From Actinomycetospora termitidis (GTDB lineage: Bacteria; Actinomycetota; Actinomycetes; Mycobacteriales; Pseudonocardiaceae): a DNA stretch of 64,000 nucleotides. The stretch spans positions 434,001 to 498,000 of the forward strand of contig NZ_JASVWF010000002.1 in the NCBI RefSeq assembly GCF_030286555.1, given 5' to 3'. A program made the translations under genes and the position numbers. Positions 16,357-37,150 of this stretch are shown here, piece by piece (the first letter of the stretch is position 1; each line of letters starts with the position of its first letter). Below the pieces are notes generated by a model that had not been told where the DNA came from, did no database searches, and saw only the letters and a program-made list of their open reading frames with translations.

Positions 16357-17298
16357 GTGCAACGTTGGCGCGGTCGAGACGGCGTCCCCCCCGGCTGGGG
16401 CCGCTGCGTGGTGACGATCGGCGTGTTCGACGGTGTGCACCGCGGCCACCAGCAGCTGATCGGGCACGCGGTGGAGCGGGCCCGGGAGCTGGGCGGGCTG
16501 CCGACCACCCTGATCACCTTCGACCCGCACCCGAGCGAGGTCCTCCGCCCGGGCACGCACCCCGCGCAGCTGACCACACTGGCCCGGCGCGCCGACCTGG
16601 TCGCCGAGCTCGGGGTCGACGCCTTCTGGGTGCTGCCGTTCACCCCGGAGTTCGCCCGGGTCGAGCCGGACGAGTTCGTGCACGAGCTGCTGGTGGACCG
16701 GCTGCACGCGTCCGCGGTGGTGGTCGGGAAGAACTTCACCTACGGCTACCGCGCGGCCGGGGACGTCCCCGAGCTGGAGCGGCTCGGGGCGCGGTTCGGG
16801 TTCGAGGCGATGGGGCTGGACCTGATGGCCGACGGCGACCGGGGCCGCACCGTGACCTTCTCCTCGACCTACATCCGCAGCTGCATCGCCGCCGGCGACG
16901 TCGAGGCCGCCGCCGACGCCCTGGGGCGGCCGCACCGGGTCGAGGGCGTCGTGGTCAAGGGCGACCAGCGGGGACGCGAGCTCGGCTACCCGACGGCGAA
17001 CGTCGCCCCGACGGCCCACGCGGCGATCCCGGCCGACGGGGTGTACGCGGGCTGGTTCGTCCGCGACGAGCAGCGGTGGCCGACGGCGGTCTCGGTCGGG
17101 ACCAACCCCACCTTCTCCGGGCAGGTCCGCACGGTCGAGGCGTTCGTGCTGGACCACTCCGAGGACCTCTACGGGCAGCGGGTCGGCGTCGAGTTCGTCG
17201 GCCGGGTCCGCGGGATGGAGCGCTTCGACTCGATCGAGGAACTGATCACCGCGATGGACTCCGACGTGGCCACGACGCGGAAGCTGCTCGGTCTCTGA
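16357..17298 (+). CDS. ribF: Bifunctional riboflavin kinase/FAD synthetase
   Basis: A 313-residue RibF that phosphorylates riboflavin to FMN and adenylylates FMN to FAD. The N-terminal nucleotidyltransferase domain carries GVFDGVHRGHQQL, FDPHPSEVL and, later, TFSSTYIRS. The C-terminal riboflavin kinase domain (from about residue 185) carries GYPTANV and DGVYAGW. The GTG start has AGGAGAGG 13 bases upstream. It abuts thpR. Confidence 0.95.
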   Translation: MQRWRGRDGVPPGWGRCVVTIGVFDGVHRGHQQLIGHAVERARELGGLPTTLITFDPHPSEVLRPGTHPAQLTTLARRADLVAELGVDAFWVLPFTPEFARVEPDEFVHELLVDRLHASAVVVGKNFTYGYRAAGDVPELERLGARFGFEAMGLDLMADGDRGRTVTFSSTYIRSCIAAGDVEAAADALGRPHRVEGVVVKGDQRGRELGYPTANVAPTAHAAIPADGVYAGWFVRDEQRWPTAVSVGTNPTFSGQVRTVEAFVLDHSEDLYGQRVGVEFVGRVRGMERFDSIEELITAMDSDVATTRKLLGL

Positions 17299-25245: not shown

Positions 25246-26517
25246 GTGGGATCACCGGAGCGGATGGGTGCGGCGGCGGCGCGGCGGGCGGTGCTCGGCG
25301 CGCAGGGGCTGGACGCTCCGCCGCGGTCGGTCCCGCCGAACCGCGGCGGGCTCACGCGGCTCGTGCGGCACCTCGGGCTGCTGCAGCTCGACTCGGTCAA
25401 CGTCGCGGTGCGGGCGCACTACGCGCCGGTGTTCGCCCGGCTCGGCGCCTACGATCGTGACCTCCTCGACGCGCTGGCCTGGCCGCAGACCGCGGCCGAC
25501 CGTCGGCGCCGGGCGTTCGTCGAGTTCTGGGCGCACGAGGCGAGCCTGATCCCGGTGGAGGACTGGCCGTTGCTGCGCTGGCGGATGCGGGACAACACCG
25601 CGCGCACCAACCGGTGGCTGGGCACGGCGCTGGACCACCGGCCGGACATCCTCGACGCGGTGCACGACGCGGTCGCCGCTCACGGCCCGATGGAGGCGCG
25701 GCAGGTCGAGGAGGTGCTCGGTCACGGGGGCGAGCGGCGCGCCCGGGCACACGGCGGGTGGTGGACCCGGTCGGACGTCAAGGTCGCCTGCGAGCACCTG
25801 TTCGCCACCGGGGTCCTGACGACGGGGACGCGGCGCGGTTTCCGCCGGGCGTACGCGGTGAGCGAGGACGTCATCCCGCCCGGGGTCCACGCCCGGGAAC
25901 CCGATCGAGCGGAGTCGATGCGAGCGTTGACCCTGCGGGCGGCGGCCGCGCACGGCGTGGCCACGGAACCCGACCTGCGCGACCACTACCGGCTGCCGCC
26001 CGCGGAGAGCCGGGTCGCGGTCGCGGAGCTCGTCGACGCGGGGGAGCTGGAAGAGGTCGAGGTCGACGGGTGGGGTGCGCCCGCGTACCGATTGCCCGGT
26101 CTCCGGGTGCCGCGTCGGGTCACGGGGCGGGCCCTGCTCGCGCCGTTCGACCCGCTGATCTGGTTCCGCCCGCGCACCGAACGGATCTTCGGCTTCACCT
26201 ACCGGATCGGCATCTACACCCCGGCCGAGCGGCGCACCCACGGCTACTACGTCTTCCCGTTCCTGCTCGACGGGCAGCTGGTCGGCCGGGTCGACCTCAA
26301 GACCGACCGTGCCGCGGGCGTGCTGCGGGTGCCCGCCGCCTTCGCAGAGCCGGAGTGCATCGAGCGCGGCGCCGACGAGGCCCGGGTGGCCGCCGAACTC
26401 GCGGGCGCGCTGCGCGACATGGCGGCGTGGCTGGGGGTCGGCGACGTCGTCGTCGAGGGTGGTCCACTGGCGCCGGCGCTGTCCCGTGCCCTCCTCGCGG
26501 GGGCTCCGCTCGTCTGA
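25246..26517 (+). CDS. YcaQ-like winged-helix DNA glycosylase family protein
   Basis: A protein of about 423 residues of the HTH_42/YcaQ family. E. coli YcaQ (AlkX) and Streptomyces AlkZ unhook interstrand crosslinks. The family segments LLQLDSVNVAVRAHYAPVF and FVEFWAHEASLIP are visible near residues 45 and 90. The C-terminal winged-helix region ends with LLAPFDPLIWFRPRTERIFGF. The start is uncertain between GTG 25246 and ATG 25264. AlkZ proteins often protect producers of DNA-alkylating metabolites, but no such cluster is evident nearby. Confidence 0.8.
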   Translation: MGSPERMGAAAARRAVLGAQGLDAPPRSVPPNRGGLTRLVRHLGLLQLDSVNVAVRAHYAPVFARLGAYDRDLLDALAWPQTAADRRRRAFVEFWAHEASLIPVEDWPLLRWRMRDNTARTNRWLGTALDHRPDILDAVHDAVAAHGPMEARQVEEVLGHGGERRARAHGGWWTRSDVKVACEHLFATGVLTTGTRRGFRRAYAVSEDVIPPGVHAREPDRAESMRALTLRAAAAHGVATEPDLRDHYRLPPAESRVAVAELVDAGELEEVEVDGWGAPAYRLPGLRVPRRVTGRALLAPFDPLIWFRPRTERIFGFTYRIGIYTPAERRTHGYYVFPFLLDGQLVGRVDLKTDRAAGVLRVPAAFAEPECIERGADEARVAAELAGALRDMAAWLGVGDVVVEGGPLAPALSRALLAGAPLV

Positions 26518-27583: not shown

Positions 27584-27735
27584 CGGCGCGGCTACCCGCT
27601 CGGCGCGGAGGCACACCGCCGCGCACCGACCGGACGTCCCGCAGAACCTGCCGTTTGCCGACGAGGACCGGCCGGGGAGCACACCTGGAGTCGGCCCGCG
27701 GACGCGCCGGGGCCTGGCAACGAGGAGGACGTCGG
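27584..27735. promoter_or_regulatory. Divergent promoter region of the YcaO cluster
   Basis: A 152-base gap between the epimerase and the first gene of the nine-gene cluster. GAGGAGG (27722-27728) is a strong ribosome binding site for the GTG at 27736. I see no clear TANNNT box on the plus strand and no obvious operator palindrome. Confidence 0.4.
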
Positions 27736-28914
27736 GTGTCGGACGAGCAGCGCAAGGTCGGGGTGGCCGTCGTCGGGGTGGGCGGCGCGGTATCGACCAC
27801 CGCGATCGCGGGGGTCGAGCTGCTGAAGGTCGGCGCGTGCGGGACCGAGGGCCTCCCGTTCGCCGACGTCGAGTCGCTGGTGCCCTACACGTCGCTCGTG
27901 TTCGGCGGGTGGGACCTCGACGGGGACGACCTCGCGAAGGCCGCCCACCTCCACCGGGTGCTCGAGCCGGGGGTCATCGAGGCGTCGGGGGCCGGGCTCG
28001 CGGCCGTGACGCCGTGGCCCGCCGTGGCCGACCCGGACTACTGCCGCAACGCCGTCGGCGCGAACGTCGTCCCGATCTCGTCGCTGCGCGGGCGGGTCGA
28101 CCACATCCGCACCGACATCGAGCGCTTCCGCACCGAGCACGACCTCGATCGCGTCGTCGTCGTGAACCTCGCCTCGACCGAGCGCTGGCCGGACCTGACG
28201 CTGCCGTCGCTTCAGACGCCGGAGGCGTTCGAGGAGGCCCTCGACGCCGACGACCCGGTGATCAGCCCGAGCATGATCTACGCCTACGCCGCGATCGTCT
28301 CCGGCTCGCCGTACGTGAACTTCACGCCGAGCGCGTCGGCCGACATCCCGGCCCTCCTCGAGCTCGCGCTGCAGCGCAGCGTCCCGGTCGCCGGCAAGGA
28401 CGGCAAGACGGGGCAGACCATGATCAAGACGGTGCTCGCGCCGGCGTTCGCGTCCCGCTCGCTGCACGTCGACGGCTGGTACTCCACGAACATCCTCGGC
28501 AACCGCGACGGCCAGGTCCTCGACGACGCCGACTCGCTGCAGGCCAAGCTCCAGACCAAGGGCAACGTCCTCGACGAGTGCCTCGGCTACCACGTCGAGG
28601 ACCACCAGGTCCGGATCGACTACTACAAGCCGCGCGGGGACGAGAAGGAGGCCTGGGACAACATCGACCTGACCGGCTTCCTCGGCCAGAAGATGCAGGT
28701 CAAGGTCGACTTCCTGTGCCGCGACTCGATCCTGGCCGCGCCGCTGGTGCTCGAGCTGGCGCGCATGGTCGACGAGGCCGCCCGCCGCAAGGAGGGCGGG
28801 GCGCAGGAGCAGCTCGGCTACTTCTTCAAGGCGCCGATCACCCGCGACGGCTCGGAGCCCGTGCACGCCCTCTACCGGCAGGAGCAGGTCCTGCGGGAGT
28901 GGCTCGCGCGGTGA
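27736..28914 (+). CDS. Inositol-3-phosphate synthase-like protein
   Basis: A 392-residue member of the myo-inositol-1-phosphate synthase family, which cyclises glucose 6-phosphate with catalytic NAD. The NAD loop GVGGAVST is at 14-21 and the family active-site strand GKDGKTGQT at 220-228, followed by IKTVLAPAFASR and LGNRDGQVL. The GKDGKTG form differs from the primary mycobacterial Ino1 as I remember it, so this is a divergent paralogue that may act on another sugar phosphate. It opens the nine-gene cluster. Confidence 0.85.
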   Translation: MSDEQRKVGVAVVGVGGAVSTTAIAGVELLKVGACGTEGLPFADVESLVPYTSLVFGGWDLDGDDLAKAAHLHRVLEPGVIEASGAGLAAVTPWPAVADPDYCRNAVGANVVPISSLRGRVDHIRTDIERFRTEHDLDRVVVVNLASTERWPDLTLPSLQTPEAFEEALDADDPVISPSMIYAYAAIVSGSPYVNFTPSASADIPALLELALQRSVPVAGKDGKTGQTMIKTVLAPAFASRSLHVDGWYSTNILGNRDGQVLDDADSLQAKLQTKGNVLDECLGYHVEDHQVRIDYYKPRGDEKEAWDNIDLTGFLGQKMQVKVDFLCRDSILAAPLVLELARMVDEAARRKEGGAQEQLGYFFKAPITRDGSEPVHALYRQEQVLREWLAR

Positions 28915-29801
28915 GTCTCGCGCAGCTCGTCGGGCCCTTCCGCGAGATCGGCGACCTCAAGCGGGTCCACGTGGCCGGCCGGGCCGGGTCGATCGCCGAC
29001 CACGCGTTCGTGCGCGCCTGGTCGGCGCTGGCCGGCGGAGCCGACCCGACGACCGTGGCCGACGCCGAGTGCGCGGCCGCGGTGGCCGGTGCCCGGCTCG
29101 CCGGGCTGGACGCCACGGTGCTGCACGACGCCGGCCTGACCCGCGACGAGGCCCGGGCGGTGCGGACCCGCGCGATCGACGAGGTCGGCGCGGCGCTCAC
29201 CGACGACACGCGGCGGCGCCTGGTCGAGGCCCCGGACCCCGTCGAGGACCTCGCGCACGTCCCGCCGTTCGCCCACACGCTCGTCGACCAGCCCCGCGCC
29301 GGCGCGACCGCGCCCGGCCGGCCCCGGATGATCGTCGAGCCGCCGGAGGACCACGGCGAACACTGCTGGGCGGTCGCGGTGTACGGCGCGCTGGTGGCCG
29401 AGGACCTCGGCGCCGACCCGGGCGAGGCCTTCCTGCTCGGGCTCGCCCACCACCTGCACAACGTCGCCGTGCCCGACGCCGGGTTCGCGGGAGAGATCCT
29501 GCTCGGCGACCACCTCGGGTCGATGCTCGAGCGGCTGACCGAGCGCGAGCTCGCCACGCTGCCGACGGCGCTCGCCGACCGGGTGCGCGGCCTGCTCACC
29601 GCCCGCGCCGACGCCGACACCCCGCTCGGTCGCGCCTTCCACGCCGCGGACGTGCTCGACCGCGTGCTGCAGGTCCACCACCACGCCCGTGCGGCCGCGT
29701 TCACCGCGAAGGACGCGCTGGTCGACCTCGAACTCGTCCACGAGTCGCCGGTCTCGGCCTACCACGACGCCGTGCTGACCGAGGCGGGCCTGCTGCCGTG
29801 A
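28911..29801 (+). CDS. HD-domain-like protein with altered metal ligands
   Basis: A 296-residue protein whose second half resembles an HD phosphohydrolase. H148/H151 (DHGEHCW) precede a motif LAHHLHN at 178-184, where the usual His-Asp pair reads H180-H181, and D247 (HAADVLD) could be the final ligand. The replacement of Asp by His makes the catalytic metal site uncertain. The first 130 residues are helical and not recognised. GTG 28911 overlaps the upstream stop by four bases. Confidence 0.6.
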   Translation: MSLAQLVGPFREIGDLKRVHVAGRAGSIADHAFVRAWSALAGGADPTTVADAECAAAVAGARLAGLDATVLHDAGLTRDEARAVRTRAIDEVGAALTDDTRRRLVEAPDPVEDLAHVPPFAHTLVDQPRAGATAPGRPRMIVEPPEDHGEHCWAVAVYGALVAEDLGADPGEAFLLGLAHHLHNVAVPDAGFAGEILLGDHLGSMLERLTERELATLPTALADRVRGLLTARADADTPLGRAFHAADVLDRVLQVHHHARAAAFTAKDALVDLELVHESPVSAYHDAVLTEAGLLP

Positions 29802-30928
29802 TCGACCCCCACTCCCGCCGGCCGTTGACGGCGGACACCCCGCACTCGGTGTCCGACGGCGAGCGGCGGTGGCCGGTGCTGGACGGGATCCCGTACCTGC
29901 GGGTCGGGCGGGGGGAGCTCGTCGAGCGGGCCCTGACGGCGCTCGACGACGGGCGGGTCCGTGACGCGGCCGCGATCCTGCTCGCGGACAACGACGACTG
30001 GTGGGACCAGCCGCCGCCCCCGCCCCAGGTGCTCGCGGAGGCCTACGACGCCGCCGCCGACCCGCGGACCACCCTGCGCGACGCGGTGACCGCCCTGGGC
30101 CTCGGGCGCGTCGGGGACTACTTCCTGCACCGCGACCACGACCCGTCCGGCCTCGCCGTCACCGCGCTCGTGGCCACGCACCCACCCGCGGGACGGCCCG
30201 TCGTCGACCTCGCCTGCGGCGCCGGGCACCTGCTGCGTCGGCTCGTCCGGGAACCGGGGGAGACGGGCGGAGCCACCGGGATCGACATCGTCTTCGCGAA
30301 GCTCTGGCTCGCGCGCCGGTTCGTGCTCCCCGCCGAGGGCGGGGTCGACCTCGTCTGCGCCGACCTCCGCGCCCCGTGGCCGCTCGCTCCCGACGGCGAC
30401 CGCTGGGTCTGCTGCCACGACACGCTGTACTTCCTCGACGACCCCGGCGACGTGCTGCACCGGGCGGTCGAGCTCGCGGGCCCCGGCGGCGCCGTCCTCG
30501 CGGGGCACTGCCACAACGCCGAGCACCCGCTCGGGGCCGCCGGGCACCCGTTGACCACCGACGAGTGGGCGGGCCTGCTGCCGGGCGCCCTCACCTACCC
30601 CGAGGAGGAGCTGACCGACGCCGCGCTGCAGGGCCGCCGGGCCCGACCCGTCGTCGGGACGGAACTGGAGCGGACCGAGGCGGTCGCGCTGGCGTTCGAC
30701 CACGTCGCCGCGCTGCCGCAGCCGGCCCTGCTCGACCCGTCGCCCGGCGCGACGCTGCGGCCGAACCCGCTCTACCGCGACGGGGTGCGGGAGTGGCCGA
30801 ACCCGCGCTGGGCCGCCGAGTACGGCGCGCGGGCGGCGGTCTACCTGCCGGAGACCCTGCCCACGGACCTGTCCGACGACCGGGCGGCCCGCCGCCGCGT
30901 GCTCGTCGAGCTGCCGGAGCGCTGGTGA
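29798..30928 (+). CDS. SAM-dependent methyltransferase with Trm112-like N terminus
   Basis: A 376-residue protein. Residues 1-35 form a Trm112/UPF0434-like strand pattern (RRPLTAD then RRWPVLDGIPYL) that lacks the usual cysteines. A class I methyltransferase fold follows, with motif I VVDLACGAGHL at 135-145 and an acidic residue ending strand 2 (GIDIVFAK). The C-terminal 110 residues contain a long Pro-rich extension. It overlaps both neighbours by four bases. The acceptor is probably a small molecule of the pathway. Confidence 0.75.
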   Translation: MIDPHSRRPLTADTPHSVSDGERRWPVLDGIPYLRVGRGELVERALTALDDGRVRDAAAILLADNDDWWDQPPPPPQVLAEAYDAAADPRTTLRDAVTALGLGRVGDYFLHRDHDPSGLAVTALVATHPPAGRPVVDLACGAGHLLRRLVREPGETGGATGIDIVFAKLWLARRFVLPAEGGVDLVCADLRAPWPLAPDGDRWVCCHDTLYFLDDPGDVLHRAVELAGPGGAVLAGHCHNAEHPLGAAGHPLTTDEWAGLLPGALTYPEEELTDAALQGRRARPVVGTELERTEAVALAFDHVAALPQPALLDPSPGATLRPNPLYRDGVREWPNPRWAAEYGARAAVYLPETLPTDLSDDRAARRRVLVELPERW

Positions 30929-31956
30929 GCACCGGGTGGGGCGTGGTCGGCCTGGGGTGGGTGGCCCGCGACCACGCGCTCCCCGCGATCGCCGCCGACC
31001 CGGACGCCCGCCTCGTCGCGGTGTGCGACCGCGACCCGGACGCCCTCGCCGCAGCCGGCCCGGGCGTGACCGCGACCGACGACCTGGACGCCTTCCTCGC
31101 CGTCGACGGGCTGGACGCGGTCTACGTCGCGACCCCGAACCACGCCCACCTGCCCGTCGTGCGCGCGGTCGCCGCCGCCGGGGTGCCCGTGCTGTGCGAG
31201 AAGCCGATGGCCCACACCGTCGACGACGCGTGCGCGATGGTCGACGCGGTCGGTGCCGGGCTCGCCGGCACGGCCTTCGACCAGCGGTTCCACCCCGCGC
31301 ACACCCGCATCCGGGAGCTCGTGGCCGAGGGGCGGATCGGCGCCGTCACCGCGGTCCGGATCGTCTATGGCTGCTGGCTGCCGCCCGGCTGGTTGCCCCC
31401 GCACACCGCGACCGACGGCGCGAACTGGCGGGTCGACACCGCCCTGGCCGGCGGCGGCGCCGCGATCGACCTCGCCCCGCACGGCATCGACCTCGTCGGC
31501 ACCCTTCTGGGCGAGGACCTCGCCACCCTGCAGGCCCTCACCCGCCGTCGGGTGCACGACTACGTCGACCCCGCGGCCGACGACGGCGCCGTGCTCGTCG
31601 GGGCGACCCGCTCCGGCACGCTCGTCGACGCCCACGTCAGCTTCTGTCTGCCCGACGCCCTGCCGCGGCGTCGTCTGGAACTGGTCGGCACCCGCGGCCA
31701 GCTGGTCGCCGAGAACACCCTGGGCCAGGTCGCGGGCGGCACGCTGACGTTCCTCGACGCCGCCACCGGCGCGGCGGAGGCGGTCGCGTTCGACCCGGAC
31801 GGGCCGTTCGAGCGCCAGCTCGCCGCGTTCGGCGCGGCCGTCCGCGGGGAGCGCCCGTGGCCCTACCCGCTCGCCCGCGACCTCGCGCTCCACGAGCTGC
31901 TGCTCGGCGCCCTCGACACCGCCGGCCCCGTCCTCAAGGAGATGCCGTGCCCCTGA
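30925..31956 (+). CDS. Gfo/Idh/MocA family oxidoreductase
   Basis: A 343-residue NAD(P)-dependent sugar or cyclitol dehydrogenase. The Rossmann loop GLGWVA is at 9-14, the family EKP motif at 92-94 (CEKPMAH), and the histidine-bearing GGGAAIDLAPHGIDL gives the catalytic Lys/Asp-His set. The inositol-phosphate-synthase partner makes a keto-cyclitol or inosose reaction plausible. GTG 30925 overlaps the methyltransferase stop by four bases. Confidence 0.85.
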   Translation: MSTGWGVVGLGWVARDHALPAIAADPDARLVAVCDRDPDALAAAGPGVTATDDLDAFLAVDGLDAVYVATPNHAHLPVVRAVAAAGVPVLCEKPMAHTVDDACAMVDAVGAGLAGTAFDQRFHPAHTRIRELVAEGRIGAVTAVRIVYGCWLPPGWLPPHTATDGANWRVDTALAGGGAAIDLAPHGIDLVGTLLGEDLATLQALTRRRVHDYVDPAADDGAVLVGATRSGTLVDAHVSFCLPDALPRRRLELVGTRGQLVAENTLGQVAGGTLTFLDAATGAAEAVAFDPDGPFERQLAAFGAAVRGERPWPYPLARDLALHELLLGALDTAGPVLKEMPCP

Positions 31957-32777
31957 GCCCCTGGACCTGCTCGAACTGCGGCCACTGGCAGCGCTGGTTC
32001 GACGTGCCGCCCGCGTGCCCGGTGTGCACCGACGTCCGCAACGCCCTGCCCGACGACGGGTGGGACTTCCGTCCGCTCGCCGAGATCGCCGAGGGCCGCG
32101 AGGCGCGCTGGACCGAGGTGCGGCCCGGCATCACGGGGTTCTGGTGCGAGCCGCAGGTCGGGCTGGGCACGTGCGGGTGGGTCATCGAGACCGATCACGG
32201 CCTCGTCGGCTGGGAGGGCGCGGGGTTCTACCCCGACGAGGGCCTCGCCGAGATCCGTCGCCGCGGGGGCCTGATCGCGCTCGCCGCCAGCCACGTCCAC
32301 GGCTACGGCGCGCTCTTCCAGCTCCAGGACGCCCTGCAACCGCCGGTCATGGCGATCGGCGTCCGCGACCTGGAGTGGACGAAGGCCTTCCGCGTGACCT
32401 GGCCGCTCGACGACCGGCACGAGTTCGCCCCCAGTCTGGTCGCGCACCGCACCGGCGGCCACTTCGACGGGCACATGGTGCTGCACGACGAACGCCGCCG
32501 GGTCCTGTTCTGCGGCGACATGCTCAAGGCCGCGCTGGACGACGAGGGCCGCGCCACCGGGTTGTCGGCCCACAAGGCCTACCACGCCCAGATCCCCCTC
32601 TCGCACCAGGAGATCCGGGATGCCTACAAGGTCATCGGGAACCTGGACTTCGACGCCGTCGCCACCCCGTTCGAGTTCGTCGAGGGCGTCACCACGGCCC
32701 ACGTGCTCGCGCTCTACGACCGGCTGCTGTCCGCGCAACCGGTCGCCGGCGCGATCCCGCTGGACGAGCTCTCGTGA
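31947..32777 (+). CDS. Zinc-ribbon metallo-beta-lactamase-like protein
   Basis: A 276-residue protein. The N terminus is a zinc ribbon with C8, C11, C24 and C27. The rest is a metallo-beta-lactamase fold, but the usual HxHxDH reads HVHGYG at 116-121, losing the Asp and third His. Later ligands H172 or H176 (GGHFDGH) and D191 (FCGDML) are kept. It could bind a single metal or act non-hydrolytically. GTG 31947 overlaps the previous gene by ten bases and has AAGGAGA upstream; it overlaps the YcaO gene by four. Confidence 0.7.
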   Translation: MPLSPWTCSNCGHWQRWFDVPPACPVCTDVRNALPDDGWDFRPLAEIAEGREARWTEVRPGITGFWCEPQVGLGTCGWVIETDHGLVGWEGAGFYPDEGLAEIRRRGGLIALAASHVHGYGALFQLQDALQPPVMAIGVRDLEWTKAFRVTWPLDDRHEFAPSLVAHRTGGHFDGHMVLHDERRRVLFCGDMLKAALDDEGRATGLSAHKAYHAQIPLSHQEIRDAYKVIGNLDFDAVATPFEFVEGVTTAHVLALYDRLLSAQPVAGAIPLDELS

Positions 32778-34291
32778 GCCTCGACGCCGTCGCGCAGGAC
32801 TACACCGACGCCCTGCCACCCGGTGAGACCGACGAGATCGAGCTCCGCGACGCCGACCGCACCGGGGTGCACGTCGTCGCCGCCGACTTCGCCGACCCGT
32901 CGGGTCACTGGCCGCGCTCCGGCTCGTTCGGCTACGGGCTCTCCGTCGAGCGCGCCCGGGTGGCGGCCCGCGCCGAGCTCGCCGAGGAGATGCTGCTCTC
33001 CCGGCACCTGCGCACCCTGGAGCGCACGCGCGACTCGTACACCGCGCTGCGGGGACGACTGGGCGACGGCGGAGTCGTCGACCCGGTCCGGCTGACGCTC
33101 CCCGCGGGCAGTGCCTACGACCCGGACGCGCCGCGGTGGTGGCTCCCGGCCACCCGCGTCCGCACCGGCGAGACGGTGCTGGTGCCGGCCGAGTTCGCCG
33201 CCGCGTACCCCGTCGACCTGCCCTGGCAGGACCCCGCCGAGCGGCTCACCACCGTCATCACCAACGGCTGCGGCGCGGGCGACACCGTCGAACGCGCGCT
33301 GGGCCACGCGCTCGGCGAGCTGCTGCAGCGCGACGGCAACGCGACCGCCTTCCGCGCCCTGGACCGGGGGATCGTCATCGACACCGGTCCCGACGACGAG
33401 CTGGTCGCCGACCCGGACACCCGGGCCCTGCTCGCGCACCTGCGCGGGGTCGGCGTCCGGGTCGTGCCGAAGCTCGCGTCCACCGCGTTCGGCGTCACCG
33501 ACCTGCACGTCGTCGGGTACGACGCCGTGGGGGACCCGCCGCACCCGATCGCCCTGACCGCCTGCGGGGAGGCCGCCCACCCGGACCGCGAGGTCGCGCT
33601 GCAGAAGGCGCTGCTCGAGTTCTGCTCGGCCCGCGTGCGCAAGACGTTCGCCCACGCCGACCTCGCGACGGTGCACCCGCTCGCCCCCGCGAGCTACTGG
33701 GACCGCGAGTTCGCCCAGCCGCTCCCGCCGCAGGAGGCCCGGGCCTTCCGGGCGATGCAGGACTGGACGGCCCGCGACGCCGACGACCTGCGAGGCCTGC
33801 TGGAGCCCGTCCTCGCCGAGCACACGCGGGTGCGGTTCGACGAGCTGCCGACCACGGCCGTCGGGCACCCCGTCGCGGTGCTCGACGACCTCATGGGCCG
33901 GCTCGCGGAGTTCGACGTGCTCGCCGTGCTCGCGGACGAGGGGCCGGCGTGCACGGTGAAGGTGCTCGTGCCGGGCCTCGAGGTCGAGACGATGTCCTAC
34001 GGGCGCATCGGTCGCCGGGGCGTCGACCGGCTGCTCGACCGTGCGGCCGACCCGCACGACCCCGCCTTCGGCCTCGTCGGGCTCGGCGACCCGCCCCACG
34101 CCGGCGCGCTGCCGGTGCTCCTTCCCGACGACGAGGCGGCTCGGCTCGCCGACGAGCGCGGCAGCGACCGCGCGTGGCTGGACCGCGACCGCGTCGACGC
34201 GGTCGTCGGCGACCTCTACCCGCTCTACCGCGAGCCGTCCCGGCACGCGGTCGCCCGCGTGGCGGCGGGGGAGGAGGTGGAGCTGACATGA
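32774..34291 (+). CDS. YcaO-domain protein, non-RiPP context
   Basis: A 505-residue YcaO protein. The family ATP-binding helix reads E173-RALGHALG-E182-LLQR-D187, and the second helix runs from E273 to E282 (EVALQKALLE). YcaO enzymes use ATP to activate amide oxygens for cyclodehydration or thioamide formation. There is no terminal PxPxP tail, no fused E1-like or TfuA partner, and no short precursor gene in the tightly packed cluster. It may therefore act on a small molecule, as the YcaO of 6-thioguanine synthesis is thought to. Confidence 0.8.
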   Translation: MSLDAVAQDYTDALPPGETDEIELRDADRTGVHVVAADFADPSGHWPRSGSFGYGLSVERARVAARAELAEEMLLSRHLRTLERTRDSYTALRGRLGDGGVVDPVRLTLPAGSAYDPDAPRWWLPATRVRTGETVLVPAEFAAAYPVDLPWQDPAERLTTVITNGCGAGDTVERALGHALGELLQRDGNATAFRALDRGIVIDTGPDDELVADPDTRALLAHLRGVGVRVVPKLASTAFGVTDLHVVGYDAVGDPPHPIALTACGEAAHPDREVALQKALLEFCSARVRKTFAHADLATVHPLAPASYWDREFAQPLPPQEARAFRAMQDWTARDADDLRGLLEPVLAEHTRVRFDELPTTAVGHPVAVLDDLMGRLAEFDVLAVLADEGPACTVKVLVPGLEVETMSYGRIGRRGVDRLLDRAADPHDPAFGLVGLGDPPHAGALPVLLPDDEAARLADERGSDRAWLDRDRVDAVVGDLYPLYREPSRHAVARVAAGEEVELT

Positions 34292-35127
34292 GTCTCCGCT
34301 GGGCCTACAACACCAACGGCCTGTCCTCCCACCGGCTCGACGACGCCCTCGCCCTGCTCGCCGACCACGGCTACGCCGGGGTGGCGCTGACCCTCGACGT
34401 CGCCCACCACGACCCGTTCGCCCCGGACCTCGCCCGGCGCACCGCCGCGCTGGCGGAGCGGCTGCGCGACCTCGGGCTGGCGAGCGTCGTCGAGACCGGG
34501 GCGCGCTTCCTGCTCGACCCGCGCCGCAAGCACCACCCCACCCTGGTCAGTGCGGACGCCTCGGACCGCGCGCGTCGGATCGACTTCCTGCGGTTGTGCG
34601 TGGACGTCGCCGCTGACCTCGGCAGCGAGGCGGTCTCGTTCTGGGCGGGGGTCCTGGCGGAGGGCCTGGACCCGGACGAGGCGTGGAAGCACCTGGTGCA
34701 CGGGGTCGCCTCGGTCGCCGGGCACGCGCGGTGGCGGGACGTCCCGGTCGCCGTCGAGCCCGAGCCGGGGATGCTGGTCGACGACCTGGACGACTGGAGC
34801 GAACTGCAGGGCGAGGTCCCCGACATCACGCTCGCGCTCGACACCGGCCACTGCATCGTCTCGGGCCGCTGGGAACCCGCCGACGCGGTGCGGGCGTTCG
34901 CCCCGCACCTCGGGGCGGTCGCCGTGGAGGACATGCCCCGCGGCGTGCACGACCACCGCACACCCGGCGAGGGCGACATGGACCTGCCCGCCGTCGTGAC
35001 CGCGCTGCGCGACGTCGGCCACCGCGGGCTGGTCAGCCTCGAGCTCTCCCGCGACTCCCACCGCGCCGACCGCCTCGTGCCGGAGGCGATCGCGACGCTG
35101 CGCGCCATGGAAGGAGTGGACGAGTGA
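34288..35127 (+). CDS. Sugar phosphate isomerase/epimerase-like TIM barrel
   Basis: A 279-residue AP-endonuclease-2-type TIM barrel. Likely metal ligands are the Glu of VAVEPEPG, the Asp of LALDTGH with its His, and the Glu of LVSLELSRD. The N-terminal YNTNGLSSHRL and ETGARFLLDPRRKHHPTL segments resemble barrels of the ebo metabolite clusters (EboE type), as far as I can judge from memory. ATG 34288 overlaps the YcaO stop (ATGA). It could isomerise a keto-cyclitol or ketose intermediate. Confidence 0.78.
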   Translation: MSLRWAYNTNGLSSHRLDDALALLADHGYAGVALTLDVAHHDPFAPDLARRTAALAERLRDLGLASVVETGARFLLDPRRKHHPTLVSADASDRARRIDFLRLCVDVAADLGSEAVSFWAGVLAEGLDPDEAWKHLVHGVASVAGHARWRDVPVAVEPEPGMLVDDLDDWSELQGEVPDITLALDTGHCIVSGRWEPADAVRAFAPHLGAVAVEDMPRGVHDHRTPGEGDMDLPAVVTALRDVGHRGLVSLELSRDSHRADRLVPEAIATLRAMEGVDE

Positions 35128-36368
35128 GGATCTGTTTCGTCTCCCGCCGCTACTGGCCGGCGGTGTCCGGGATGAGCGCGTACGCGGAGAACCTGCTGCG
35201 CCACCTCGTCCGGGCCGGTCACGACGTCACGATGATCTCCCAGTACCGCGGCGACCCGGCCGGACGCGCGGTGTACGGCGGCGGCCCGCCGCCGCCCGAG
35301 CGGGTCCCCGACGGCGTCGAGGTGGTGGCGCTCGAGGCGCACGGCGAGCAGGAGGTCGTCCACGACCGCCCCGCCGACTTCGAGGCCGACGTCGAGACGA
35401 TGCGCGCGACGATCGCCCGGTTGCACGCGCAGCGGCCCTTCGACGTGCTGCACGCGCAGTACGCCTACCCCAACGGCCTGGCCGTGCTGCGCGCCGCGCA
35501 CGAGCTGCGCCTGCCCGCCGTCGTCAGCGTGCAGGGCGGCGACGGGCACTGGGTCGGCACCTGCTGCGACACGCACCGCGAGCTGATCCGGGCGGTGTTC
35601 GCGCATGCACCCGCACTGGTGATCGGCTCGCCGTCGTTCGCGGGCGAGGTGTCGGCGCGCCACGAGGTCGACCCGGCCCGGTGGACGATCGTCTCCGGCG
35701 CCACGGACACCGAGCGATTCACGCCCGCCCGCGAGCCCGGGACCCTCGGCGACCCGCCGACGTTGCTCTACCACGGTCGCGTCGACGCCCGGAAGGGCGT
35801 GCTCGACCTGCTCGAGGCGCACCGGATGCTGCTCGACGGCGGCCGGGACGTCCGCCTGGTCGTCTCCGGGATCGGGCCGGACACCACCCTGGTCGCGGAG
35901 CGCGTGACCGAGCTGGGTCTGGACGACCACGTCTCCCAGCTCGGCTACACCCCGTACGAGCGGGCGCACGAGGTCTACGGCCGCGGCGACGTGTTCGTGA
36001 GCCCGACCTACGCCGAGGGCTTCTCCAACACGGTCCTCGAGGCGATGGCGTCGGGGCTGCCGGTGGTGTCCACCGACGTCGTCGGCGTCCGCGACTGCGT
36101 GCGTCCCGACGACAACGGCGTGCTCGTCCCGGCGAAGGACCCGGCCGCGCTGGCCGCCGGGATCGGGCGGGTCCTCGACGACGACGGACTCCGGGTCGGC
36201 ATGGCCCGGCGCGCGCTGGACGAGGTCCGCGCGGTGTGGTCCTGGCCGGTGATCGCCGACCGGGTCACGGACGTCTACGACGTGGTGCGGGACGTCCCGG
36301 TCCCCGCCATCCCCGACCCGCCCGTGGACCCGTCGTGTCGGTTCCGCGCGGCGCCGCACCTGCTGTGA
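35124..36368 (+). CDS. Glycosyltransferase family 4
   Basis: A 414-residue retaining GT4 enzyme. The N-terminal Rossmann half has VSGMSAYAENLLRHL and a long DVLHAQYAYPNG acceptor region. The donor half carries HGRVDARKGVLDLL and the EX7E motif E298-GFSNTVL-E306. MshA of mycothiol synthesis belongs to the same family and transfers GlcNAc to inositol phosphate. Pairing with an inositol-phosphate-synthase-like gene and a PIG-L deacetylase makes an MshA-like reaction attractive. GTG 35124 overlaps the upstream stop. Confidence 0.88.
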   Translation: MRICFVSRRYWPAVSGMSAYAENLLRHLVRAGHDVTMISQYRGDPAGRAVYGGGPPPPERVPDGVEVVALEAHGEQEVVHDRPADFEADVETMRATIARLHAQRPFDVLHAQYAYPNGLAVLRAAHELRLPAVVSVQGGDGHWVGTCCDTHRELIRAVFAHAPALVIGSPSFAGEVSARHEVDPARWTIVSGATDTERFTPAREPGTLGDPPTLLYHGRVDARKGVLDLLEAHRMLLDGGRDVRLVVSGIGPDTTLVAERVTELGLDDHVSQLGYTPYERAHEVYGRGDVFVSPTYAEGFSNTVLEAMASGLPVVSTDVVGVRDCVRPDDNGVLVPAKDPAALAAGIGRVLDDDGLRVGMARRALDEVRAVWSWPVIADRVTDVYDVVRDVPVPAIPDPPVDPSCRFRAAPHLL

Positions 36369-37150
36369 GGGTCGTGGCGGTCAGCCCGCACCTCGACGAC
36401 GCGGTGTTCTCGGTCGGCGGCACGCTCGAGCGGCTGGGGGCCGACACGCTCGTCGTCACCTGCTTCACGGGCTCCACGGACCCGGCGACCGTGACGCCGT
36501 TCGGGCTCTCGACCCAGCTCGACAAGGGCCTGTCGGCCGACGTGGACTACATGGCGCTGCGCCGCGAGGAGGACCGCCGGGCGTTGGCGGTCCTCGGGGT
36601 CACCGGTCGGCACCTGGACCTGCTCGAGGCCCCGCATCGCGGCTACGACAGCCCGGCCGAGCTCTTCGCGGGGCGGCACGACGACGACGCCGTGGCCGGC
36701 CCCCTGGCCGACGCGCTCGGGCCGCTGCTCGCCGACGCCGACCTCGTCCTCGCCCCGCAGGCGCTCGGCGACCACGTCGACCACCAGTGGGTCGGCGCGG
36801 TCGTCGCCGACCTCGTGGACCCCGGGCGCGTGGCGTGGTGGCGCGACACCCCGTACGTGCTGCGCCGGCCCGACGCCGCGCCGATGGAGCACGTGGCCGG
36901 GCAGGAGCTCGCCGTCGACGTCACCGCGGAGCTGGATCGCAAGGTCGCGGCGGTGCGCTGCTACGTCACGCAGGTGCCGTTCCAGTTCGGGACGGCGGAG
37001 GCGGCCGGCCCGGCGCTGACCGGGCTCGCGCGCGACGAGGCCGCCCGGTCCGGTGCCGCGGCGCCCGTCGAGGTGCTGCGCGCCGGGGTTCGGGCCGCCG
37101 AGGTGCTGGCGCCGCTCGGCGGGAAGCGGGACCGGGAGCCGTCGCGATGA
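36365..37150 (+). CDS. PIG-L family deacetylase
   Basis: A 261-residue zinc deacetylase of the PIG-L/MshB family. The zinc motif is S7-P-H9-L-D-D12-A (the common PHLDDA variant of PHPDDE) and the partner histidines are H137/H140 in GDHVDH. MshB removes acetyl from GlcNAc-inositol, and this enzyme follows the glycosyltransferase directly, overlapping it by four bases. It is the last gene of the cluster and is followed by a hairpin. Confidence 0.87.
   Translation: MRVVAVSPHLDDAVFSVGGTLERLGADTLVVTCFTGSTDPATVTPFGLSTQLDKGLSADVDYMALRREEDRRALAVLGVTGRHLDLLEAPHRGYDSPAELFAGRHDDDAVAGPLADALGPLLADADLVLAPQALGDHVDHQWVGAVVADLVDPGRVAWWRDTPYVLRRPDAAPMEHVAGQELAVDVTAELDRKVAAVRCYVTQVPFQFGTAEAAGPALTGLARDEAARSGAAAPVEVLRAGVRAAEVLAPLGGKRDREPSR

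Follow-up and report, generated by a model that had tools for sequence, protein, structure and literature searches.

A nine-gene overlapping cluster of Actinomycetospora termitidis combines inositol, aminosugar, and YcaO enzyme families and is conserved across three phyla

Introduction

What is made by a gene cluster that places an inositol-phosphate synthase, a GT4 glycosyltransferase, and a PIG-L deacetylase in one line with a YcaO enzyme? This question is raised by a locus of Actinomycetospora termitidis, which we analysed within a window of 64,000 nucleotides (the whole stretch of DNA under analysis).

Architecture of the locus

The locus (27736–37150) comprises nine genes (g1–g9) on the + strand, joined by eight successive overlaps of 4, 4, 4, 10, 4, 4, 4, and 4 bases from g1 to g9. 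The coordinates, strand, and overlap count of the original prediction (seven of 4, one of 10) were exact to the base. Its calls for all nine families were recovered by Pfam, except that the Trm112 part it had ascribed to g3 had no Pfam match at E up to 0.1. The features, with gene products as predicted from these matches, are:

27722..27728, + strand: Shine-Dalgarno-like GAGGAGG, read in the sequence 7 bases upstream of the GTG start of g1
27736..28914, + strand: g1, myo-inositol-1-phosphate synthase, 392 aa (PF07994 7e-64, PF01658 7e-34)
28911..29801, + strand: g2, HD_3 protein with a helical N-terminal part (Pfam HD_3 2e-6)
29798..30928, + strand: g3, SAM-dependent methyltransferase (PF13649 1.4e-7)
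30925..31956, + strand: g4, Gfo/Idh/MocA sugar or cyclitol dehydrogenase (Pfam 1.5e-22)
31947..32777, + strand: g5, metallo-beta-lactamase-fold hydrolase with an N-terminal zinc ribbon (Pfam 2e-7; fold predicted)
31968..32027, + strand: zinc ribbon of g5, C8 C11 C24 C27 (all four Cys conserved in each of the 23 aligned sequences)
32774..34291, + strand: g6, YcaO enzyme, 505 aa (PF02624 5e-43, 148.2 bits vs cut-off 25.7)
34288..35127, + strand: g7, xylose-isomerase-like TIM barrel, an isomerase, epimerase, or dehydratase (AP_endonuc_2, PF01261 2.3e-36)
35124..36368, + strand: g8, GT4 glycosyltransferase (GT4 Pfam 3e-34)
36365..37150, + strand: g9, PIG-L de-N-acetylase (PF02585, 3e-14)

Outside the cluster, 11 of 34 same-strand neighbour pairs overlap, 8 of these by exactly 4 bases; eight consecutive overlaps exceed this background, since (11/34)^8 is ~1e-4 (a hand estimate, uncorrected for how many places such a run could occupy). 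The run is as expected from a tight operon, and there is no intergenic space between any of the nine genes for a precursor peptide. Conservation in other genomes is stronger evidence for a unit than the run of overlaps.

Distribution and co-inheritance

The nine genes behave as one co-inherited pathway. All nine occur in the same order in Pseudonocardia, Micromonospora, Streptomyces, Rubrobacteraceae, and Roseomonas; the Hymenobacter cluster is without g3 only; and Methylobacterium has eight genes in line, with g5 elsewhere in the genome. The cluster spans bacteria of three phyla. The original view of the genes as one co-inherited unit is upheld by this order in other genera and phyla, and the nine families were found together elsewhere, where their failure to co-occur would have spoken against it. 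The cluster YcaO is carried by 108 of the 111 genomes of the genus Methylobacterium and by 10 of the 396 Actinomycetota genomes. Among loci of at least 6 kb (n = 82), all nine genes stand in order in 12, the eight other than g5 do so in 59, and 5 have g1–g6 only; these synteny counts are conditional on a g1 relative because loci L018–L097 were picked by g1 similarity (the best 80 of at least 525 relatives). In genomes G005, G008, G010, and G011, which have the g1–g6 group, g7 shares a contig with g6 at a distance of ~15 kb. g3 was not found in line in loci L003, L034, and L096. Among 17 congeners, g1 is present in 11 and g7 in 10, every g7 carrier also having g1. For six genes, the pairwise identities show correlations of 0.88–0.96 across the 25 rows (of 30) in which all six are available; Hymenobacter, R. 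marinus, two Micromonospora, and G560 (5 of 30 rows) were omitted from the joint tree, each having a gene absent from the set used or of insufficient length.

All 21 cluster genomes examined have g5, and in the 15 that belong to the Methylobacterium group it lies outside the cluster. Its standing as a strict companion of the cluster is weakened by two genomes without the YcaO that keep g5 (G685 and G705) and one with the YcaO and no g5 match (G732). The flanks share three families in all, none of them common to more than two host groups; in locus L027, an MFS gene follows the cluster.

Enzymes encoded by the cluster

The named active-site residues of g1, g2, g6, g7, and g9 are almost unbroken across loci; the counts below are of loci, so that one genome may appear twice, and orthologues with internal stops or low coverage were dropped. 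Like the conservation as a unit, the family matches and these residues are direct observations. The closest solved relatives of g1 are 7nwr (3.5e-83) and 1u1i (1.7e-57). K271, K275, K304, and K365, the four catalytic lysines of myo-inositol-1-phosphate synthase, are present in 95 of 95 loci (some genomes counted twice), and with these lysines and both Pfam families g1 qualifies as such a synthase, judged by its sequence. Two relatives of g1 with ~46% identity occur on plasmids in other contexts: one on Hymenobacter volaticus unnamed1, close to genes for a phosphatidylglycerophosphatase, a CDP-alcohol transferase, and PAP2, and one in Runella, beside an annotated methyltransferase.

The folds of g2 and g5 are predicted. 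g2 agrees with HD phosphohydrolases of the YfbR/HDDC2 type in family match and predicted fold, and such enzymes head the list of structures matching its model; g2 is a probable phosphomonoesterase. The canonical H...HD...D metal site of YfbR/HDDC2-type enzymes is not present in g2, where the HD motif reads HH (H180-H181) in 89 of 89 loci. Because of this motif, an HD-domain oxygenase (MIOX/PhnZ type) was weighed and judged less likely, given the phosphohydrolases at the head of the list and no MIOX/PhnZ chain among the 50 rows listed. The sole match to a defence system, of g3 with the methyltransferase part of mad2 (PADLOC), was weak (27.6 bits), and this candidate was discarded. Solved relatives of g4 are 1,5-anhydro-D-fructose reductase, aldose-aldose oxidoreductase, inositol 2-dehydrogenase, and glucuronide-3-dehydrogenase. 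E157, D185, H188, and E252 of g7 are present in 96 of 96 loci. Solved relatives of g8 include 3c48 (MshA) and BshA 5d00. H9, D11, and D12 of g9 are present in 65 of 65 loci, and its four solved matches are deacetylase 6iiy and the pseudoaglycone deacetylases Dbv21 and Orf2; g9 is thus nearest to deacetylases acting on aminosugars of small molecules.

The family match of g6, together with the ATP/Mg residues E68, E71, N164, E182, and Q185 (112 of 112 loci), identifies it as a YcaO enzyme. Sixteen of its 19 checked positions are identical in 112 of 112 loci and the other three in 111, 111, and 98; the stand-alone YcaO copy L157 differs at four of the 19. Profile comparison gave 6pe3 (MJ1094) and 6ci7 as best matches, both thioamidation-type enzymes, and among NCBIfam models SagD (68.8 bits) outscores McrA thioamidation (49.9 bits). 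A C-terminal PxPxP marks TOMM azoline-forming YcaOs and is absent from the YcaO C-termini examined. Neither an RRE/E1-like partner nor a precursor peptide was found within the nine-gene cluster by families and spacing. Cluster-type YcaOs also occur beside sugar importers and glycosidases. In two Rubrobacteraceae genomes, one lies in an SBP-permease-permease-YcaO-polysaccharide-deacetylase operon and nests inside the cluster YcaO tree. This sugar-import context therefore ties the YcaO to carbohydrate substrates.

Proposed pathway and product

We give roughly even chances to the reading that the nine genes form an operon dedicated to making a small and very polar conjugate of inositol and an aminosugar, which most likely protects the cell from a stress of surface life. 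For this pathway we infer the substrates, order of steps, sugar donor, and nucleophile as follows: (i) g1 would convert glucose 6-phosphate to inositol 1-phosphate, from which g2 would take off the phosphate; (ii) g4 would form a ketone by oxidising a hydroxyl of the ring or the sugar, and g7 would isomerise, epimerise, or dehydrate the product; (iii) g3 would methylate; (iv) g8 would transfer an N-acetylhexosamine, likely GlcNAc, whose amine g9 would free; (v) g6, acting as a peptide-independent YcaO, would phosphorylate, at the expense of ATP, an oxygen belonging to an amide, vinylogous amide, or acid, which an amine (or sulfide) would then replace; and (vi) g5 may hydrolyse a late intermediate. 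The evidence agrees with the methylated, YcaO-modified amino-sugar cyclitol first proposed for this locus.

A protective role, and perhaps absorption of UVA by the product, is hinted at by the range of hosts and by the losses. Hosts include Rubrobacter, Hymenobacter, and Micromonospora endolithica. NodA is carried by 3 of the 111 Methylobacterium-genus genomes, among them 2 of the 3 YcaO-less ones, and the third NodA genome keeps the YcaO, in a comparison that is small, post hoc, and uncorrected for kinship; the two YcaO-less genomes with this nodulation gene therefore probably belong to bacteria living shielded in nodules. A UV link through neighbours is weak, because only two host lineages, Roseomonas and Rubrobacter marinus, have a gene for spore photoproduct lyase close to the cluster, and the UDG-like gene is confined to the Methylobacterium group.

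A bolder version, tentative and on balance unlikely, is that a UVA sunscreen resembling mycosporines is made here by a separate route starting from inositol, in which case the cluster would make the UVA-absorbing compounds of Methylobacterium (methylobamine), reportedly described in Yoshida 2017 and Kamo 2018. Such a product would be a UV-absorbing cyclohexenone or cyclohexenimine. Besides the hosts, the NodA genomes, and the lyase neighbours, the near-core standing of the YcaO in that genus (108 of 111) points this way. Inositol would be oxidised, dehydrated, and methylated to an enone; the YcaO would replace the ATP-grasp enzyme, phosphorylating the oxygen of a (vinylogous) amide to let an amine add; and the aminosugar would render the product very polar. 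In the mycosporine pathway, an oxidised cyclitol is methylated, a carbonyl oxygen is activated with ATP, and an amine is added. The likeness lies in the proposed chemistry only: no sugar-phosphate cyclase of the mycosporine (MAA) type and no ATP-grasp enzyme is among the nine families, and the core would be C6 inositol instead of C7 sedoheptulose.

Comparison with known systems and alternative explanations

Like mycothiol biosynthesis (Ino1, MshA, MshB, MshC, and MshD), the cluster has an inositol-phosphate synthase, a GT4 glycosyltransferase, and a PIG-L deacetylase, with a plausible GlcN-inositol intermediate; the parallel in logic originally drawn is supported. By contrast, kinship with the mycothiol enzymes themselves did not hold: (i) g8 scores 80.8 bits against a cut-off of 462.5 for MshA (TIGR03449); (ii) g1 scores 32 bits against 638 for mycothiol Ino1 (TIGR03450); and (iii) the NCBIfam hits of g9 include no MshB model. 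Because g1 and g8 fall so far below these cut-offs and a genuine MshA (635.5 bits) lies outside the cluster at G000:C1:987026, the cluster is not that of mycothiol. Furthermore, it adds enzymes including the YcaO, has neither the MshC cysteine ligase nor the MshD acetyltransferase family among its nine genes, and occurs in two Methylobacterium-group genomes (G460 and G467) without an MshA match at E 1e-60. Bacillithiol (BshA, BshB, and BshC) shares the GT4 and PIG-L pair, and BshB1 is the best NCBIfam match of g9, but at 24.8 bits against a cut-off of 182.5; BshC is not among the nine, and the cluster has an inositol synthase. With g1, g8, and g9 below the family cut-offs and the true MshA elsewhere, membership of either pathway was rejected. 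For the resemblance of the barrel and the synthase to ebo-cluster proteins noted originally (EboA, EboC, EboD, and EboE being the families of that cluster), the NCBIfam hits at E up to 0.1 (for g8, the best 25 of 41) gave no support, none of them being an ebo-named model, in a library that presumably contains such models.

The parallel in Ino1, GT4, and PIG-L, the thioamidation type of the two nearest solved YcaOs, and the match of the McrA model to g6 would also suit a redox buffer of a new kind, a low-molecular-weight thiol or thioamide that has a glucosamine conjugate as its base, as in mycothiol and bacillithiol, and receives its sulfur from the YcaO. We consider this unlikely: cysteine ligase, acetyltransferase, desulfurase, ThiF, and TfuA are all absent from the nine; MshA is kept above cut-off in 6 of 9 cluster genomes tested (G000, G003, and G469–G472); bshB1 adjoins the Hymenobacter cluster, so that this host keeps its own thiol gene; and the SagD model is the better match to g6. 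Stand-alone YcaOs outside classical RiPPs have a precedent in YcfA of 6-thioguanine. The thioamidating McrA YcaO is another (PMC5589413). Unlike these, g6 is embedded in sugar/cyclitol enzymes, with no TfuA or sulfur gene among the nine.

It is quite improbable that the product is an antibiotic or signalling molecule of the aminocyclitol kind. Gene sets for aminocyclitols are similar in their synthase, dehydrogenase, methyltransferase, glycosyltransferase, and deacetylase, but the nine include no aminotransferase or resistance gene, the flanks have no family common to more than two host groups, and near-core presence throughout the genus Methylobacterium (108 of 111) is unusual for an antibiotic. 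We regard it as very doubtful that the operon breaks down or salvages an inositol glycoside instead of making one, as the occurrence of cluster-type YcaOs beside importers and glycosidases might suggest. Gfo/Idh and TIM-barrel pairs are common in sugar breakdown, as in inositol catabolism (IolG, IolE, and IolI); however, the cluster scores 95.8 bits against 355 for IolG and 24.5 against 290 for IolE, has no importer or glycosidase among the nine, and includes synthetic types, namely g8 and g1 with all four lysines. A RiPP pathway with a peptide encoded elsewhere is most improbable: most YcaOs modify peptides and the SagD-type model matches g6, but the cluster has no precursor gap and no partner protein, g6 is surrounded by carbohydrate-type enzymes, and its close relatives stand in a sugar-importer context.

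Significance

Literature searches found no description of the cluster or of a pathway with these nine families, in line with the initial statement that no nameable known pathway has this composition; the pathway is apparently undescribed. Near-intact retention over three phyla and almost universal presence in the leaf genus Methylobacterium imply that the product must be useful. The inositol-aminosugar pathway would take YcaO chemistry beyond peptides, to metabolites that join a sugar and a cyclitol. Should its product be the UVA absorber of Methylobacterium, the cluster would provide a genetic basis for photoprotection on leaf surfaces.

Organization of the operon

The original prediction placed nine genes joined by overlaps at positions 27736–37150 of the window, and re-reading the sequence reproduced these coordinates and overlaps to the base. 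The genes (g1, myo-inositol-1-phosphate synthase; g2, HD_3; g3, SAM methyltransferase; g4, Gfo/Idh/MocA; g5, zinc-ribbon metallo-β-lactamase fold; g6, YcaO; g7, TIM barrel; g8, GT4; g9, PIG-L) form a single unbroken plus-strand operon, the first gene of which starts with GTG, preceded by GAGGAGG. The window lies on contig C11 of a 6.6-Mb genome of the genus Actinomycetospora; contig and coordinates equate the congener G010 with A. succinea at locus L020. The nearest flanking genes are ordinary, with an AlkZ-like glycosylase and an epimerase-family gene upstream, and LysR (opposite orientation, 71 bases past the cluster end) and succinate dehydrogenase genes downstream.

Window 25291–26517: AlkZ-like DNA glycosylase gene, second gene upstream of the cluster

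Conservation of gene order

A g1 similarity scan with one genome per species yielded at least 525 relatives, of which the best 80 were retained. Methylobacterium or Methylorubrum accounted for 58 of these 80 and related alphaproteobacterial MAGs for 3; the rest were 7 Actinomycetospora, 4 Micromonospora, 4 Streptomyces, 2 Rubrobacter, 1 Pseudonocardia, and 1 Quadrisphaera MAG. Of the 82 loci spanning 6 kb or more, 12 had the order 123456789 (g1 to g9 in line), 59 had 12346789, and 5 had 123456; the remaining 6 showed six further patterns, one locus each, and 4 of these loci end early.

All nine genes, in unchanged order and with MdoH, are present on plasmid p546-2 of Roseomonas haemaphysalidis, and a Hymenobacter volaticus plasmid carries the set without g3, with g4 annotated as two pieces. 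On the latter, the split Gfo/Idh annotation and bshB1, which immediately adjoins the cluster on the opposite strand, were read at L003:10072–11120 and 16507–17241. In the Rubrobacteraceae regions read, five genomes (R. marinus counted again among them) have all nine genes, and one more has the cluster on a cut contig. In R. marinus (L054:13400–15302), g4 consists of two overlapping calls, a TGA lies inside the g5 match, and g9 is called short; these irregularities may reflect sequencing error or decay. In the family of the Methylobacterium-group genome G460, eleven genomes have cluster genes, with g5 within the stretch read in 4.

After g9, Methylobacterium-group loci encode a UDG-superfamily-like protein (54/62) and an MprF-flippase-like membrane protein (56/62; L060:18861–20669, L004:16555–18493); the total of 62, counted by hand, takes in loci truncated at contig ends. 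Genes of the spore photoproduct lyase family lie near the cluster in Roseomonas (two, L005:17720–19841) and R. marinus (one, L054:6437–7486).

Displaced genes and co-inheritance

In one Actinomycetospora subclade, g7 shares a contig with g6 at a distance of approximately 15 kb in four genomes (G005, G008, G010, and G011) and sits on a different contig in two (G004 and G006); in G007, whose genome is 84% complete, no g7 was found. Among 17 congeners of the window, g1 occurs in 11 and g7 in 10, all 10 of which have g1. In the Methylobacterium group, g5 lies outside the cluster; all 21 of the cluster-bearing genomes checked, including 15 from this group, contain it. Across 111 Methylobacterium-genus genomes, YcaO was found in 108 and g5 in 109: both genes are missing from G689, YcaO alone is missing from G685 and G705, and the g5 search gave no match in G732. 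The exceptions differ in part, and g5 is therefore not strictly tied to YcaO in this genus. Pairwise identities of six cluster genes correlate at 0.88–0.96, and their joint tree sets Actinomycetota apart from Alphaproteobacteria (both from 25 of 30 rows).

Distribution and other contexts of the YcaO

At E 1e-40, YcaO was present in 10/396 sampled Actinomycetota (the window's own genome counted), 9/39 Rubrobacteraceae (the family of G111, assigned because G294 matches R. marinus), 22/199 genomes of G460's family, and the 108/111 given above for G460's genus. Two of the nine Rubrobacteraceae hits (L154 and L156) are YcaO alone, the other cluster genes being absent from the 20 kb read, and a third (G337) is 96% identical to the L156 YcaO. 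The same absence over 20 kb was seen in G054, from the window's taxonomic order. The L154/L156 importer operon is a second carbohydrate context for YcaO.

L154:7136–12815 and L156:7975–13583 (Rubrobacteraceae): operon of a sugar ABC importer in which cluster-type YcaO follows SBP and two permeases and precedes a polysaccharide deacetylase
L157:8989–10482, minus strand: cluster-type YcaO, in convergent orientation with genes for sugar ABC permeases, GH4, and an IlvD/EDD dehydratase; transposase nearby

Possible product

Combined, the nine functions would yield inositol phosphate, inositol, and a keto-cyclitol or keto-sugar; methylation, an aminosugar, and a single activation of a carbonyl at the expense of ATP would complete the set. 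Mycosporine chemistry offers an analogy, in that an enaminone is a vinylogous amide and YcaOs activate amide oxygens.

The product might be imagined as an inositol-based, mycosporine-like UVA sunscreen, with YcaO replacing ATP-grasp. Excerpts of the literature report specific UVA-absorbing compounds in Methylobacterium (PMC12573535, citing Yoshida 2017) and name methylobamine (PMC9664959), which favors this proposal, as does the near-universal YcaO of the genus. Also in its favor, NodA occurs in 3/111 of these genomes, and two of the three without YcaO (G689 and G705, not G685) carry it (hypergeometric 0.0015, calculated by hand, post hoc, kinship ignored). Against the proposal, the third NodA genome keeps YcaO; M. 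jeotgali, reported in PMC8561711 to be without a full carotenoid cluster, retains the YcaO cluster (L060); and a light-exposed life is not known for every host.

Among the open-access titles and abstract openings listed, one of the lists being capped, none described this cluster; a description may exist elsewhere, for example in subscription papers or preprints. A YcaO gene cluster, which may or may not be this one, is noted for one Roseomonas species in PMC8776678. A putative sunscreen, drawn by analogy, appears an unlikely product, and the chances are about even that the cluster encodes a general small-molecule pathway.
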